Assembly (NCBI GenBank): GCA_903926695.1
Contig: CAIYKK010000068.1
Coordinates: 1 to 10,523 of the forward strand
Reading direction: 5' to 3'
From: an uncultured Burkholderiales bacterium
Lineage (GTDB): Bacteria; Pseudomonadota; Gammaproteobacteria; Burkholderiales; Burkholderiaceae_C
DNA length: 10,523 nucleotides
A program made the translations under genes and the position numbers. The notes below the pieces were generated by a model. It was not told where the DNA came from, made no database searches, and saw nothing but the letters and a program-made list of their open reading frames with translations. This document shows, in pieces, positions 1,427 to 9,930 of the stretch. Position 1 is the first letter of the stretch; each line of letters opens with the position of its first letter.

Positions 1427-2689
1427 GTGATTTCCGAGTCTCCAACACCCGCAAGCGCCCTGCCCCGGCGCATTGCCCACCTCGACATGGATGCGTTTTT
1501 CGCCTCCGTCGAGTTGCTGCGCTATCCACAGCTCAAAGGCTTGCCGGTGGTTATTGGCGGGGCGCGGCGCAGCGTTGATGAAGCGCTGCTGGCCGCGCAG
1601 GGCCAGCGGGCACTGCGTTTTATCCCGGTGGCCGAGTTTCCGCTGCTCAAGGATTACGTGGGCCGGGGCGTGATCACCACGGCGACTTACGCGGCGCGCC
1701 AGTTCGGCATCGGCTCGGCGATGGGCATGATGAAAGCGGCCCGGCTGTGCCCGCAGGCCATCGTGCTGCCGGTCGATTTTGATGAAATCCGGCGCTTTTC
1801 GCGGCTGTTCAAAAGCATCATTGCCGAGATTGCGCCGCTGGTCGAAGACCGGGGCGTGGACGAGGTGTATATCGACTTCACCGACGTTCCCGGCGGCCAG
1901 CGCGAAGGCGGGCGGGTGCTGGCACGGCTGATTCAAAAAAGCATTTTTGACAAAACTGGCCTGACCTGCTCGATGGGCGTGGCGCCCAACAAGCTGCTGG
2001 CCAAAATGGCCAGCGAATTTAACAAACCCAACGGCGTTTCCATCGTGGTTGAAAGCGATTTGCAGGCCAAAATCTGGCCGCTGCATGTACGCAAAATCAA
2101 CGGCATCGGACCCAAGGCGGGCGAGCGGCTGGCGGCGCTGGGCATTGAAACCATCGGCGAGCTGGCCGCGCAGGCGCCGCACCGGCTGGTGCGCCATTTC
2201 GGCCAGTCCACCGGCGTCTGGATGATTGAGGCGGCCTGGGGGCGCGACGCCAGCGCGGTCGTCACGCACAGCGAGCCGGTCAGCATCAGCCGCGAAACGA
2301 CGTTCGAGCGCGACCTGCACGCGGTGCGCGACAAGGCCGAACTGGGCGCGATTTTCACAAGGCTGTGCGAGCAGGTCGCCGCCGATTTGCAGCGCAAGGG
2401 TTATGCCGCCAAAACCATAGGCATCAAGCTGCGCTACGAGGATTTCAAAATCGCCACGCGCGACCTGACGGCGCCGGGCTACACCGCCGACGCCAAAACC
2501 ATTCGCCGCTTGGCCGGGCAGTGCCTCAAACGGGTGCCGCTGGACAAGCGCCTGCGCCTGCTGGGCGTGCGGGCCGGGACGCTGCTCAAGGTGGGGGAGC
2601 TGGCCGATGGTGAACAGCACCGGGCAGTCGGCACCTCGGCACCGACACAGGCGGGCGCTGAATTGACAGTCACCCGTCAGCTGTTCTAG
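1427..2689 (+). CDS. dinB: DNA polymerase IV (Y-family translesion polymerase)
   Basis: Error-prone polymerase that copies past damaged template bases. The GTG start at 1427 gives 420 residues. HLDMDAFFASVE (18-29) carries the metal ligands Asp20 and Asp22 and the probable steric-gate Phe25; RGVDEVYIDFTD (142-153) carries the catalytic Asp145-Glu146. MGVAPNKLLAKMASEFNKPNG (palm) and INGIGPKAGERLAALGIETIGE (thumb helix-hairpin-helix, 224-245) follow, then a little-finger domain from about 280. The protein ends in RQLF, a short form of the beta-clamp binding motif. Between GGARR (44-48) and GVITTATY (81-88) there are about 30 residues that E. coli DinB lacks, where the finger region normally runs straight on. 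The family is about 350 long, so this insertion plus a longer C-terminal tail explains the length. Ribosome site is weak (GGA near 1420). No LexA operator seen. Confidence 0.95.
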   Translation: MISESPTPASALPRRIAHLDMDAFFASVELLRYPQLKGLPVVIGGARRSVDEALLAAQGQRALRFIPVAEFPLLKDYVGRGVITTATYAARQFGIGSAMGMMKAARLCPQAIVLPVDFDEIRRFSRLFKSIIAEIAPLVEDRGVDEVYIDFTDVPGGQREGGRVLARLIQKSIFDKTGLTCSMGVAPNKLLAKMASEFNKPNGVSIVVESDLQAKIWPLHVRKINGIGPKAGERLAALGIETIGELAAQAPHRLVRHFGQSTGVWMIEAAWGRDASAVVTHSEPVSISRETTFERDLHAVRDKAELGAIFTRLCEQVAADLQRKGYAAKTIGIKLRYEDFKIATRDLTAPGYTADAKTIRRLAGQCLKRVPLDKRLRLLGVRAGTLLKVGELADGEQHRAVGTSAPTQAGAELTVTRQLF

Positions 2690-2774
2690 CGGTTGTTGGT
2701 GATTTACCGGAAGACGCTGCACAGGTGAAAGTCCGGCAGGCCGCTGAACGGGTGAATATTCCAGCCCAGACGTG

Positions 2775-2804
2775 AAAAAAGGGCGCAAACCTGCGCCCTT
2801 TTTT
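2775..2804. terminator. Intrinsic terminator, probably bidirectional
   Basis: A perfect 13-bp inverted repeat (2775-2787 with 2792-2804), core GGGCGCA/TGCGCCC, flanked by six A on one side and six T on the other, with a 4-base loop (AACC). It lies between the convergent dinB and outer-membrane protein genes, and its A/T flanks would serve transcripts from either side. Confidence 0.92.
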
Positions 2805-2836
2805 GTCAAACCTTCACGCCCGTGGCGCAGGGTCTT

Positions 2837-3514
2837 TTACTTATACTTAGGTGTCGGTGCTTGGGCTTTATCGCCGAAACGGTAAATCAGGCCCGCCGAC
2901 ACGAGGTCGATATTGCCCCTGCTGCCCAGCGCATCATTGACCCGGTAGCGTTCAAGCTCGGCACGCACGGCAAGCGACTCGGTCAAGGCGTATTGCAGCC
3001 CCAGACCGAGCTTGTAATTGGCGTCGCTCTTGCTCGGATTGGGATTGCCTACCAGCACAGCCCCGGTGCTGCTGAAGGAGTCACGGGTATGGGCATAGTT
3101 CAGACCGACACGACCAAAAGCAGAAAACTTTTCATTCAGCGGCATAGTGCCGACCAGGTCAAGGTTCAATCCGGTGATCTTGATCGTGCCGTTGAGCGTT
3201 CCGGCGGGCACCGTGGTGGCGGTGTAGCCGAAGCTTCCGAGATCGAAATAACCCCCTTCCAGCGCAAAATTCTTGTCCAGCCGGTAGCCGCCAAAAACCT
3301 TGTAGCCGGTAGAGTGCTCGTCTTTGACCGTGGTGCTGGAGTTAAACCAATTGCCGACCAGGCCGCTGTTGATTTTTGCCCCGTCGATGCTCGTGCTCGC
3401 GCTGCCTAGATTGGCCCCCGCGTACCAGCCCGAATCTTGTGCCAAGGCCCAAGGGCTGGAAAATACTGCCAGCGTCGCCAGGCAAAGTGCCCCAGCAGCT
3501 TTTACTAGTTTCAT
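2837..3514 (-). CDS. Outer-membrane beta-barrel protein (OmpA-like transmembrane domain type)
   Basis: Small outer-membrane barrel, 225 residues. I chose the ATG at 3514 because GGAG lies 5 bases upstream and it begins a clean signal peptide (MKLVKAAGALCLATLAVFSS..., predicted cut after ALA at 25, before QDSGWYAG). Longer in-frame starts add 20 residues that do not look like a leader. The mature chain begins GWYAGANLGSAST and shows alternating polar/hydrophobic strands (TGYKVFGGYRLDKNFALEGGYFDLG, FSAFGRVGLNYAHT, YKLGLGLQYALTESLAVRAELERY) and a last strand LVSAGLIYRF, as in eight-stranded OmpA/OmpX/opacity barrels (Pfam OMP_b-brl type). A short charged tail follows the last Phe. There is no peptidoglycan-binding OmpA C-domain, so an OmpX- or surface-protein-like role is likely; ligand unknown. 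It stands alone behind its own promoter. Confidence 0.87.
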   Translation of the reverse strand: MKLVKAAGALCLATLAVFSSPWALAQDSGWYAGANLGSASTSIDGAKINSGLVGNWFNSSTTVKDEHSTGYKVFGGYRLDKNFALEGGYFDLGSFGYTATTVPAGTLNGTIKITGLNLDLVGTMPLNEKFSAFGRVGLNYAHTRDSFSSTGAVLVGNPNPSKSDANYKLGLGLQYALTESLAVRAELERYRVNDALGSRGNIDLVSAGLIYRFGDKAQAPTPKYK

Positions 3515-7578: not shown

Positions 7579-7865
7579 GGTATTCACCTTGTTACAAAAA
7601 TGGAAATTCTAGGCGATGGCGGGCGGGCTGGGTGCCGATGGCGGCAGGCGGCATGCCCGTCTGAAACGGCGCACGGGTGATCTATCTTGTCTGGCGTCAA
7701 AGCCAAAGGATTCAACTTGCTCAAAGTGATGGGAAAATCCACCACATGAGAAATTTTCAAGTTTTTACATGTTTTTTGACTAAGTACAACTTTTTAGTGT
7801 TGGGTAGCTGCGCCCATGCTAAAACACAAATCATGTTGAACAAGTTCCAGCACTAAGAGCTGATT
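7579..7865. other. Intergenic region crossing from host-like GC-rich to AT-rich DNA
   Basis: About 290 bases without a gene. The first part (to about 7690) is GC-rich like the backbone; from about 7690 on it turns AT-rich with T-runs (7762-7777, 7791-7795). It must carry the divergent promoters of the cytochrome and ATPase genes. A TTGACT lies at 7776-7781, but no -10 box at a normal distance was found. An imperfect hairpin at 7792-7824 is listed separately. I saw no flanking direct repeat or integrase that would mark an insertion point. Confidence 0.5.
7792..7824 (+). promoter_or_regulatory. Imperfect 33-base palindrome upstream of the ATPase gene
   Basis: TTTTAG (7792-7797) pairs with CTAAAA (7819-7824); inward, TGT pairs with ATG through two G-T pairs and one A-T, a single T bulges, and GGG (7802-7804) pairs with CCC (7813-7815) around an 8-base loop. 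It ends 41 bases before the ATPase ATG, so it could be an operator for a regulator or a leader-RNA hairpin. Confidence 0.4.
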
Positions 7866-9188
7866 ATGAAAATAAATCAGATTTCTATTTCAAATTTCAA
7901 ATTATTTGTAAAGGATGAATTTAAATTTCATCCTTCATTTAATTTGGTGGTTGGTGTTAATGGTAGCGGAAAAACTTCATTGCTTCGTGCTGTTGCAGTT
8001 GCATTAGGTGGTTGGGCGCATGCATATATAAAAGATGCTAAAAATCATCGATTTATAGCTGACGGCGAAATTAGAGAAATACAGAAAAACAAACGATTTG
8101 ATAAATCTAAAACGGTTCAAATCGAAGCGCAAGGTCAGGCAGCTATTGTTGATCGGTTTGGCTGGAAAAAAAATGGGTATGCCATATGGACCAGGGATAG
8201 AAAAGAAGAGGCTGTCGAAACATTCACATCAGGAAGGATAAATTACGGGAATGGAAATTTTTATCAATTGAATTTTGATAATCTTGGAAGTGATATTTTA
8301 AATTATATTGAAAAAGGTAAGAATTTCGAGTTGCCAATTATTGCTTTTTATGAATGTGATCGTTTATGGTTGCCTAAAGGTGAAATTAAAGCAGAAGAAT
8401 CGGCAGTATTGAAGTATTCCCGTTTTGATCCGTATCTTGACTGTTTTCATACGGGTGCTGACCATAAGTCTTTGGGGCAATGGCTGTTGAAACATGAGTT
8501 GGCATCTTTGCAGCAAAAAATTGACACACCCATACTTCTTTCCATAAAAAGTGCAGCAAAAGCAGCTTTAGAGGGCTGCTCTGATTTGCGTTTTGACTTT
8601 GATGAAGGTCGAGTAATTGTTGAATTTTCTGATGGTCACGCCATTCCATTTGAACATTTGAGTGATGGGCAGCGCATCATGTTAGGGCTGTTCTGTGATA
8701 TTGCCCGTAGAGCTGCATTGCTGAATCCTCATCTTGGTGGGGATGCCAGCGCAAAAACTGCTGGTGTTGTATTGATTGATGAGCTTGACCTGCATCTTCA
8801 TCCAAAATGGCAGCGCCGTATTATTCAACAGTTGAGGCAAACTTTTCCAAAAATCCAGTTTATCTGCACAACGCATTCACCGCAGTTGATTGGGCAAGTC
8901 AAGGCGGATGAAATTATTATTTTAGGACTCCCATCTTCTCACCCTGTACAAAGTTTTGGAATGGATTCCAACTGGGTGCTGCGTCACATCATGGGCAGCG
9001 AGGATCGTGATCCAGAAATAGCGGCCAAGCTCGATGCCGTTTTCATGGATATTGACGCGGCGCGTTTTGAAGAGGCCCAGCAGGCGGTGGATGCGTTGCG
9101 GAGTGAGTTGGGAGAACATCCTGATCTTGTGGAAGCGCAGGCATTGATTGAACGTTACACGCGATTTAATGATTCCCCGGAGGCGTGA
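7866..9188 (+). CDS. ptuA: AAA/ABC-type ATPase, PtuA-like (Septu-type anti-phage defence)
   Basis: Cytoplasmic SMC/ABC-like ATPase, 440 residues, expected to control the nuclease encoded next to it. N-terminal MKINQISISNFKLF is the usual start of RecF/OLD-like ATPases. Walker A is GVNGSGKTS (30-38), the ABC signature LSDGQ (265-269), Walker B VVLIDELDLHLHP (301-313, Asp305 and Glu306), and the H-loop THSPQ has His337, so all catalytic parts are intact. Between them, LPIIAFYECDRLWLP (156-170) and a YLDCFHTG...LGQWLLKHE segment fit the PtuA/retron-associated ATPase group. There is no TOPRIM domain, which argues against OLD nucleases. The stop is 5 bases before the nuclease's ATG, so the pair is surely one operon. 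The first 300 codons are very AT-rich and the last 80 are like the host backbone. The call rests on motifs and neighbour; the symbol is by family resemblance. Confidence 0.82.
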   Translation: MKINQISISNFKLFVKDEFKFHPSFNLVVGVNGSGKTSLLRAVAVALGGWAHAYIKDAKNHRFIADGEIREIQKNKRFDKSKTVQIEAQGQAAIVDRFGWKKNGYAIWTRDRKEEAVETFTSGRINYGNGNFYQLNFDNLGSDILNYIEKGKNFELPIIAFYECDRLWLPKGEIKAEESAVLKYSRFDPYLDCFHTGADHKSLGQWLLKHELASLQQKIDTPILLSIKSAAKAALEGCSDLRFDFDEGRVIVEFSDGHAIPFEHLSDGQRIMLGLFCDIARRAALLNPHLGGDASAKTAGVVLIDELDLHLHPKWQRRIIQQLRQTFPKIQFICTTHSPQLIGQVKADEIIILGLPSSHPVQSFGMDSNWVLRHIMGSEDRDPEIAAKLDAVFMDIDAARFEEAQQAVDALRSELGEHPDLVEAQALIERYTRFNDSPEA

Positions 9189-9193
9189 AGCGC

Positions 9194-9913
9194 ATGCGTT
9201 CAATTGTTAAACGGGGTGAACCTGTGGAGTTGGGTCAATGGAAACGAGATGGAAGAGCGACACCGCAGAACCTGCGTTATGCCTACCTCTTAACTGCGGT
9301 TAAGGATAAGATCAAAGAGGCGCTTTTAAACGAGCAAGGTTTTCTGTGTGCCTACACCTTGGTCCGGCTCAAAAGTCTTGAAGACTGCCATATTGAGCAT
9401 GTAGAGCCGCAAAATGCAGCGCCTGACAAAGATATTGATTATGGCAATATGGCAGCTTGTTTTCCCTGCGATGGTGGAGATGTTTCGCATGGTTATGGTG
9501 CAGCCATCAAGGCCGGGACACCAGTCATGCTGAATGTTGATTTTGTAACGCCACACGCACAGGGCTGCGAGCAGCGGTTTTTATTCGAGGACAAAGGGGA
9601 AGTTGGCGCGATAGCTGGGGATGCTGCAGCACATCAAACCATCGAGACGGTCAAGTTGAACCATAAAACGCTGATTGAGTTTCGCCGAAGTGCCATTGAA
9701 GCCAATGGATTGGCCTTGAGCAGGCGCACTACGCGCACGGCTCGCAAACTCAAGAGCGCGGCCGAGGCGCGCCGTTTTGCCCAAGAAGTCATGCGACCTG
9801 ATGGAAAGGGGCAACTTTCCCCTTTTTGCGTGGTTCTTGCCCAAGTGGCATTGGCCTTTGCAGAAAAGGAAGAAGCCCGATCTCAGCGGATGCGGGGGCA
9901 GCGTCAGGTTTGA
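9194..9913 (+). CDS. ptuB: HNH-type endonuclease, PtuB-like (TIGR02646 type)
   Basis: Predicted effector nuclease of the Septu-like pair, 239 residues. I chose the ATG at 9194 because GGAGG (9179-9183) is 10 bases upstream and it gives MRSIVKRG, like the MRPI/V starts of this family; a GTG at 9185 overlapping the ATPase stop (GTGA) has the same site only 1 base away. The HNH core is CHIEHVEPQN (65-74) with the His66/His69 pair, then YGNMAACFPCDGG (83-95) with Asn85, Cys89 and Cys92. HGYGAAIKAG (99-108) and a CEQRFLFEDKGEV segment (125-137) follow, then TIETVKLNHKTLIEFRRSAIEA, a familiar C-terminal helix pair. Where many HNH proteins have CxxC it has CAYT (52-55), so a four-Cys zinc site is not formed. 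It converges on icmF with 17 bases between stops. Confidence 0.82.
   Translation: MRSIVKRGEPVELGQWKRDGRATPQNLRYAYLLTAVKDKIKEALLNEQGFLCAYTLVRLKSLEDCHIEHVEPQNAAPDKDIDYGNMAACFPCDGGDVSHGYGAAIKAGTPVMLNVDFVTPHAQGCEQRFLFEDKGEVGAIAGDAAAHQTIETVKLNHKTLIEFRRSAIEANGLALSRRTTRTARKLKSAAEARRFAQEVMRPDGKGQLSPFCVVLAQVALAFAEKEEARSQRMRGQRQV
9805..9827. terminator. Terminator-like hairpin inside the end of the nuclease gene
   Basis: AAAGGGG (9805-9811) and CCCCTTT (9819-9825) form a perfect 7-bp stem around a 7-base loop, extendable by two G-T pairs, with five T at 9823-9827. It lies about 85 bases before the nuclease stop codon and could end the convergent icmF transcript or trim the plus-strand message. Being inside a coding region, it may also be chance. 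Confidence 0.35.
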
Positions 9914-9930
9914 AGCCGCCCCGCTTGGCG

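Follow-up and report, generated by a model that had tools for sequence, protein, structure and literature searches.

The ptuA-ptuB pair and its conserved residues

The window, i.e., the whole stretch of 10,523 nucleotides analysed here, carries two intact reading frames for an ABC-type ATPase and an HNH nuclease amid genes for an FMN-dependent dehydrogenase, a DNA polymerase IV-like protein, an OmpA-like barrel, a FecR/DUF6600 protein, a cytochrome c and the 3' end of icmF. An earlier note had read this as a Septu PtuA/PtuB pair in an ordinary neighborhood; the neighbors are indeed of this kind, and profile, sequence and predicted-fold comparisons agree on the identity of the pair. The features of the pair are:

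7866..9188, forward strand: ptuA with its stop codon; its product is PtuA, the ABC-type ATPase of Septu, 440 aa long
7953..7979, forward strand: Walker A of PtuA, GVNGSGKTS (residues 30-38, with Lys36), from sequence; Lys36 in 30/30
8658..8672, forward strand: ABC signature of PtuA, LSDGQ (residues 265-269), from sequence; 30/30
8766..8783, forward strand: Walker B of PtuA, VVLIDE (residues 301-306); Asp305 and Glu306 in 30/30
8874..8876, forward strand: H-loop His337 of PtuA, from sequence; 30/30
9194..9913, forward strand: ptuB, coding for the 239-aa HNH nuclease of Septu, with an ATG start and the stop codon included
9389..9400, forward strand: HIEH of the PtuB HNH motif (residues 66-69), from sequence; His69 in 80/80 relatives
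9446..9448, forward strand: Asn85 of the HNH motif; 79/80 relatives

The gap of 5 bases previously given between the genes is correct with ptuB starting at ATG 9194, at which its homologs align; an alternative GTG at 9185 would make it overlap ptuA. The best PADLOC models are PtuA1 for the ATPase (PDLC00278, E 2.4e-120, full length) and PtuB1 for the nuclease (E 1.5e-47, likewise full length), and these scores exclude a chance resemblance; the TIGR02646 model, also named in the earlier note, is passed barely by PtuB (53.2 bits against a cut-off of 52.15). PtuA matches the PtuA of PDB 8ee4 across residues 1-430 (E 9.7e-44), its predicted fold has 8eea_D as the top match (E 4.9e-29), and the first match of the predicted PtuB fold is 8eea, the solved E. 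coli Septu complex. The E. coli PtuA and PtuB are the nearest solved relatives, with all solved PtuB proteins distant from that of the window in sequence (best E 1.7e-6). Of the 84 relatives obtained by scanning a collection of genomes with a PtuB alignment, 80 were retained; a ptuA frame lies directly upstream on the same strand in 77 of these 80 loci, as it does in the window, and two of the three loci lacking it are at a contig end. The pair presents several of the defining features of type I Septu, viz., a PtuA-type ABC ATPase, a PtuB-type HNH nuclease with the His and Asn of its motif, and adjacency of both genes on one strand.

The Walker A, LSDGQ, Walker B and H-loop motifs previously noted in PtuA are intact, and Lys36, residues 265-269, Asp305, Glu306 and His337 are identical in all 30 aligned sequences, the window's own included. 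Likewise, the CHIEH (His66, His69) and Asn85 of PtuB are present and are kept in 79, 80 and 79 of the 80 related loci, respectively. In the Septu system of EcB88, PtuA K43 and D316 and PtuB H75 and N91 are reported as essential in PMC13096335; K36, D305, H69 and N85 would be their evident counterparts, matched by motif and spacing only.

In contrast, the C-x2-C (Cys89..Cys92) that had been counted among the hallmarks of the nuclease is no motif of the family: Cys92 is found in none of the 80 loci and in one of 42 sequences of the protein alignment, i.e., the C-x2-C is peculiar to the window PtuB and at most one of these relatives. Cys89 is kept in 72/80 related PtuB proteins, Cys52 in 80/80 and Thr55 in 78/80, the first knuckle reading CAYT. 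Judged by these residues, the zinc knuckles of this PtuB subfamily are half reduced (CAYT ... ACFP), and metal binding may differ accordingly. Loss of a zinc knuckle in the window PtuB alone was rejected, as CAYT is the rule of the subfamily (78/80).

Genomic setting and relation to retrons

The region downstream of icmF was compared with its equivalents in the same genus, which delimits one further feature:

7622..9930, no strand assigned: stretch with no counterpart at the corresponding site in the nearest genome identified (locus L022 of G003), i.e., an insertion; borders approximate

In G003, which is 95% identical at the icmF end, positions 1490 and 1501 of L022 match window positions 7621 and 9931, leaving about 10 nucleotides (11 positions between the matches) against 2,310 (2.3 kb) in the window. 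A search with the icmF end found a match in 57 of the 61 genomes of the genus; ptuAB DNA occurs in one of the 30 icmF loci fetched, namely the window's own, with the loci extending about 1.5 kb past the match and less at contig ends. The GC content is 0.35 in the first half of ptuA, 0.47 in its second half and 0.52 in ptuB, as against 0.63 in the rest of the window. The empty site in G003, the lack of ptuAB in the other 29 icmF loci and the lower GC together show the insertion to be recent. GC is 32% where ptuA begins and climbs to about 58% towards the end of ptuB, with a slope inside ptuA steeper than that of nearly all 66 related genes. No promoter-like site is listed between 7580 and ptuA. 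Elsewhere in the window, the segment 6573-6879 between the cytochrome c and DUF6600 genes contains no ORF longer than 64 aa, matches no Rfam family, and shows conservation close to icmF at 20 of the 30 genus loci.

The GC jump inside ptuA could mean that misassembly made the window a hybrid: the two halves differ by 0.125, as compared to a mean of 0.012 in 66 related genes (sd 0.029, largest 0.142), and the metagenome assembly from which the window comes is fragmented, with 751 contigs. However, P0086, which is an independent protein, shares 88% identity with PtuA over the whole length, and 96-100% in most blocks outside residues 56-165, making such an artefact extremely improbable.

Given the housekeeping genes around it and the membership of its ATPase in the wide SMC/RecF/Rad50-like group, the pair might instead be taken to serve DNA repair or another housekeeping function. 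Its distribution speaks against this: it is inserted in one lineage and patchy, none of 36 genomes searched in the same genus having it, and the PtuA-like matches in 7 of them being partial and distant, with no ortholog among them; further, its nearest relatives with known function are defence proteins. We accordingly regard a housekeeping role as very unlikely.

A more specific alternative is that the pair represents the effector half of a retron, with the reverse transcriptase (RT) and ncRNA lost or located elsewhere: the same pair serves type I-A retrons as effector, the named family models bear retron names, and the genome is just 86% complete. The scores of the stand-alone models are nevertheless far higher, PtuA reaching 400.8 bits with the best PtuA1 model versus 255.9 with the retron ATPase_I-A, and PtuB 160.3 bits with the best PtuB1 model versus 78.0 with the retron HNH_I-A. 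The NCBIfam Ec78 retron equivalogs NF041760 (PtuA) and NF041761 (PtuB) give 229.8 and 72.4 bits, below their curated cut-offs of 500 and 150. PtuA is also shorter, at 440 aa, than most solved retron PtuA proteins (542-552 aa, with one listed at 456 aa). As the earlier note had it, no RT gene occurs in the window, and the pair has no RT (PtuC) in front of it; nor was any RVT_1 domain found in the 86% complete assembly of the same genome. Of the RT gene and ncRNA that stand beside the pair in type I-A retrons, neither was found here, no Rfam retron family being among the three weak Rfam matches.

Among the 80 related loci, RT matches occur in one (L114), as three fragments on the opposite strand about 1.1 kb before ptuA. 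The RT model employed was built from 25 sequences out of 30 RVT_1 loci, five having been dropped by a filter; on leaving one out at a time it recovered 25/25, and three of these (L156, L157, L159) match retron RT models best. The DNA available around the 77 pairs extends at least 2 kb before ptuA in 64 and at least 2 kb on both sides in 51, and some loci could hence hide an RT. A retron origin is rejected on the profile scores, the PtuA length and the RT absence, and we consider it very unlikely. The lack of RT matches in the 86% complete genome, together with fragmentary traces of an RT in just 1/80 related loci, supports assignment to the stand-alone type. An RT (PtuC) in front defines Septu type II in PMC8565338, and its PADLOC authors put an RT before 7.6% of Septu systems.

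Taken together, this is very probably a Septu defence pair of the stand-alone type (type I), acquired by horizontal transfer and integrated downstream of icmF. It adds one member to a large, known family, other members of which occur in the same genome, a metagenome assembly whose contamination is estimated at 4.5%. On contigs C131 and C416 this genome carries two more Septu pairs, both divergent:

L051:310-1698 and 1695-2414: further Septu pair, same genome
L052:1362-2672 and 2676-3410: further Septu pair, same genome

Their best PADLOC models (PDLC00310/PDLC00357 for C131 and PDLC00269/PDLC00317 for C416) are other than those of the window pair, and the zinc knuckles differ among the three PtuB proteins of the genome. 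The C131 pair has a counterpart in G003 beside neighbors of the same kind. At E 1e-60 or better, PtuA has matches in 8 of 398 genomes of the phylum, its own included. PtuB relatives were found in none of 50,697 phage records and in 9 of 72,556 plasmid records, all below 60% identity; 19 of 169 pattern matches on viral contigs encode a PtuA relative. In E. coli, a Septu-like locus next to smrB is present to 80% or more in 180 of 5,426 genomes. In strain IAI39 (L165:4173-5976) the Septu-like locus beside smrB is broken, with ptuA split in two pieces. Strain 1105 (L166:5001-7051) encodes a PtuAB pair related to that of the window beside a gene whose annotation is that of a HamA C-terminal domain protein (Hachiman-like), and 4 of the 5,426 genomes match across most of the query.

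A fast-changing lobe of PtuA

The comparison of PtuA with its nearest relative P0086 reveals 93-98% identity in five of eight 55-residue blocks and 89% in the last, as against 65% in residues 56-110 and 69% in residues 111-165. Identity scans and pair comparisons locate the variable part as follows:

8091..8321, forward strand: the fast-changing PtuA lobe, approximately residues 76-152

In the PtuA model this is a beta-rich part following the Walker A helix, with strands at 77-80, 83-95, 101-113, 120-126 and 132-135 and a helix at 137-149. A 77-residue window was scanned over 120 homologs, considering pairs whose remainder is at least 95% identical: identity below 80% is reached only in five windows between residues 56 and 176, with a peak at residues 78-154 (61% of 33 pairs) and none of 8 to 13 pairs in the other windows, and no separate stretch of PtuA behaves like the lobe. 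The 30 pairs with cores at 0.95 or above fall into 17 with lobe identity below 0.60 and 13 at 0.70 or above, with none at 0.60-0.70. A wider set of 146 proteins (152 from two listings, less 6 shorter than 425 aa) gave 41 pairs with near-identical cores, the lobe being below 0.70 in 20; of 13 clusters of near-identical cores, 6 have two or more lobe types and 7 have one. These pairs are non-independent, and one group of seven proteins, Sulfurospirillum members included, supplies many of them. The extreme pair, P0137/P0172, is 1.00 identical in the core, 0.99 in the C-terminal part and 0.63 in residues 56-165; the difference lies mostly in residues 71-150, with lobes that are well under 60% identical and differ in length. 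In another subfamily, the PtuA proteins of C131 and G003 are 40-70% identical in residues 111-150 versus mostly 80-100% elsewhere. As a control, RecN of the window's genome and G003 shows 91% identity in residues 76-152, a correspondence by residue number only, for which L196/L193 alone were used, residue numbers in two of three comparisons being shifted by an upstream reading frame. For RecF, four genomes from the genus (G000, G003, G061 and G024) yielded no match above the family cut-off.

At the DNA level, amino-acid-changing differences in the lobe exceed those in every flank block in 9/9 diverged pairs, and silent differences are within the flank range in seven, above it in one and below it in one; these nine are non-independent, with four among cyanobacteria. 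The dN/dS of the lobe is below 1 in all 8 computable diverged pairs (0.18-0.99), three very close pairs display no lobe excess of differences, and the comparison at four-fold sites gave p <0.05, uncorrected, for 2 of 16 gene pairs. An excess of replacements without a consistent silent rise argues against import of foreign DNA in the pairs compared and for fast replacement; import could be the source of the P0137/P0172 difference. Swapping of lobes between sampled alleles is unsupported: among the 146 proteins, no pair with cores below 0.80 has lobes at 0.75 or above. A topology test on 60 proteins, run with 1,000 replicates and thus with fewer than the AU test requires, rejects the tree of the rest of the protein for the lobe (log-likelihood difference 206) and likewise for three control segments (83-99), and so does not discriminate. 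In five cyanobacterial pairs PtuB is 0.89-0.93 identical versus 0.57-0.79 for the lobe; in Pseudomonas pairs PtuB itself is merely 0.70-0.72, which precludes a general statement on PtuB versus the lobe. The 17 full matches to the smrB-side locus of E. coli among the 60 of 662 records listed are 99.2-100% identical, leaving this population comparison silent on the lobe.

Two accounts of this variability have to be weighed. The lobe may merely be loosely constrained, with no part in sensing, which fits its dN/dS below 1, silent change in or near the flank range, the absence of an excess in the very close pairs and the single lobe type in 7 of the 13 clusters. The abrupt jump between P0137 and P0172 over identical cores makes loose constraint alone insufficient as an explanation, and the recurrence of variability at the same place in a second subfamily and the conservation of the RecN counterpart (aligned by residue number) in the same two genomes also weigh against it; we judge this account a serious possibility, a little short of an even chance. 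Alternatively, the pattern suggests that the lobe may be a phage-sensing or specificity surface of PtuA. Our tentative proposal, which we hold with a confidence clearly below even, is that selection might diversify it as a hypervariable specificity lobe and some lineages might exchange it as a whole, against a nearly constant ATPase core and nuclease, and that it would set which phage signal fires Septu. If so, it would be comparable to the target-recognition domains that set restriction-enzyme specificity. The literature covered does not state how stand-alone Septu senses infection, and a lobe changing amid constant surroundings offers a testable place for this. In a literature search that reached neither the principal structural study of Septu (Li et al. 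2024) nor that of Eco7, nothing on PtuA variability was found, and PMC10907252, among the papers retrieved, contains no Septu.

Proposed working and comparison with known systems

In Septu, PtuB is kept in check by ATP. By analogy with relatives, the window pair would form a PtuA-PtuB complex active in defence: PtuA would bind ATP, oligomerise and restrain PtuB; phage infection, read through PtuA, would set PtuB free, and the freed nuclease would cut nucleic acid such that the phage cycle is not completed. The trigger and the nucleic acid cut are likewise projected from relatives, which have different targets, tRNA-Tyr for one Septu and one retron and DNA for others. According to PMC11555353, tRNA-Tyr is depleted by the pair of retron Eco7 and not by that of Eco4; the same paper cites the ATCC 25922 Septu as cutting nicked DNA. 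The review PMC12948488 gives the complex as 6:2.

Compared with the type I Septu of E. coli (8ee4, 8ee7, 8eea, 8sux), the window PtuB is 24% identical over the fold match, and its knuckle residues are CAYT..ACFP in place of CCYS..ASAL. The PtuAB effectors of type I-A retrons (Ec78/Eco7, Ec83/Eco4) belong to systems that need an RT and msDNA; most of their PtuA proteins are about 100 aa longer than that of the window, which scores lower, as does its partner, on the retron profiles. The EcB88 Septu is, like the window pair, a stand-alone PtuAB with what appear, by motif and spacing, to be the same types of catalytic residues.
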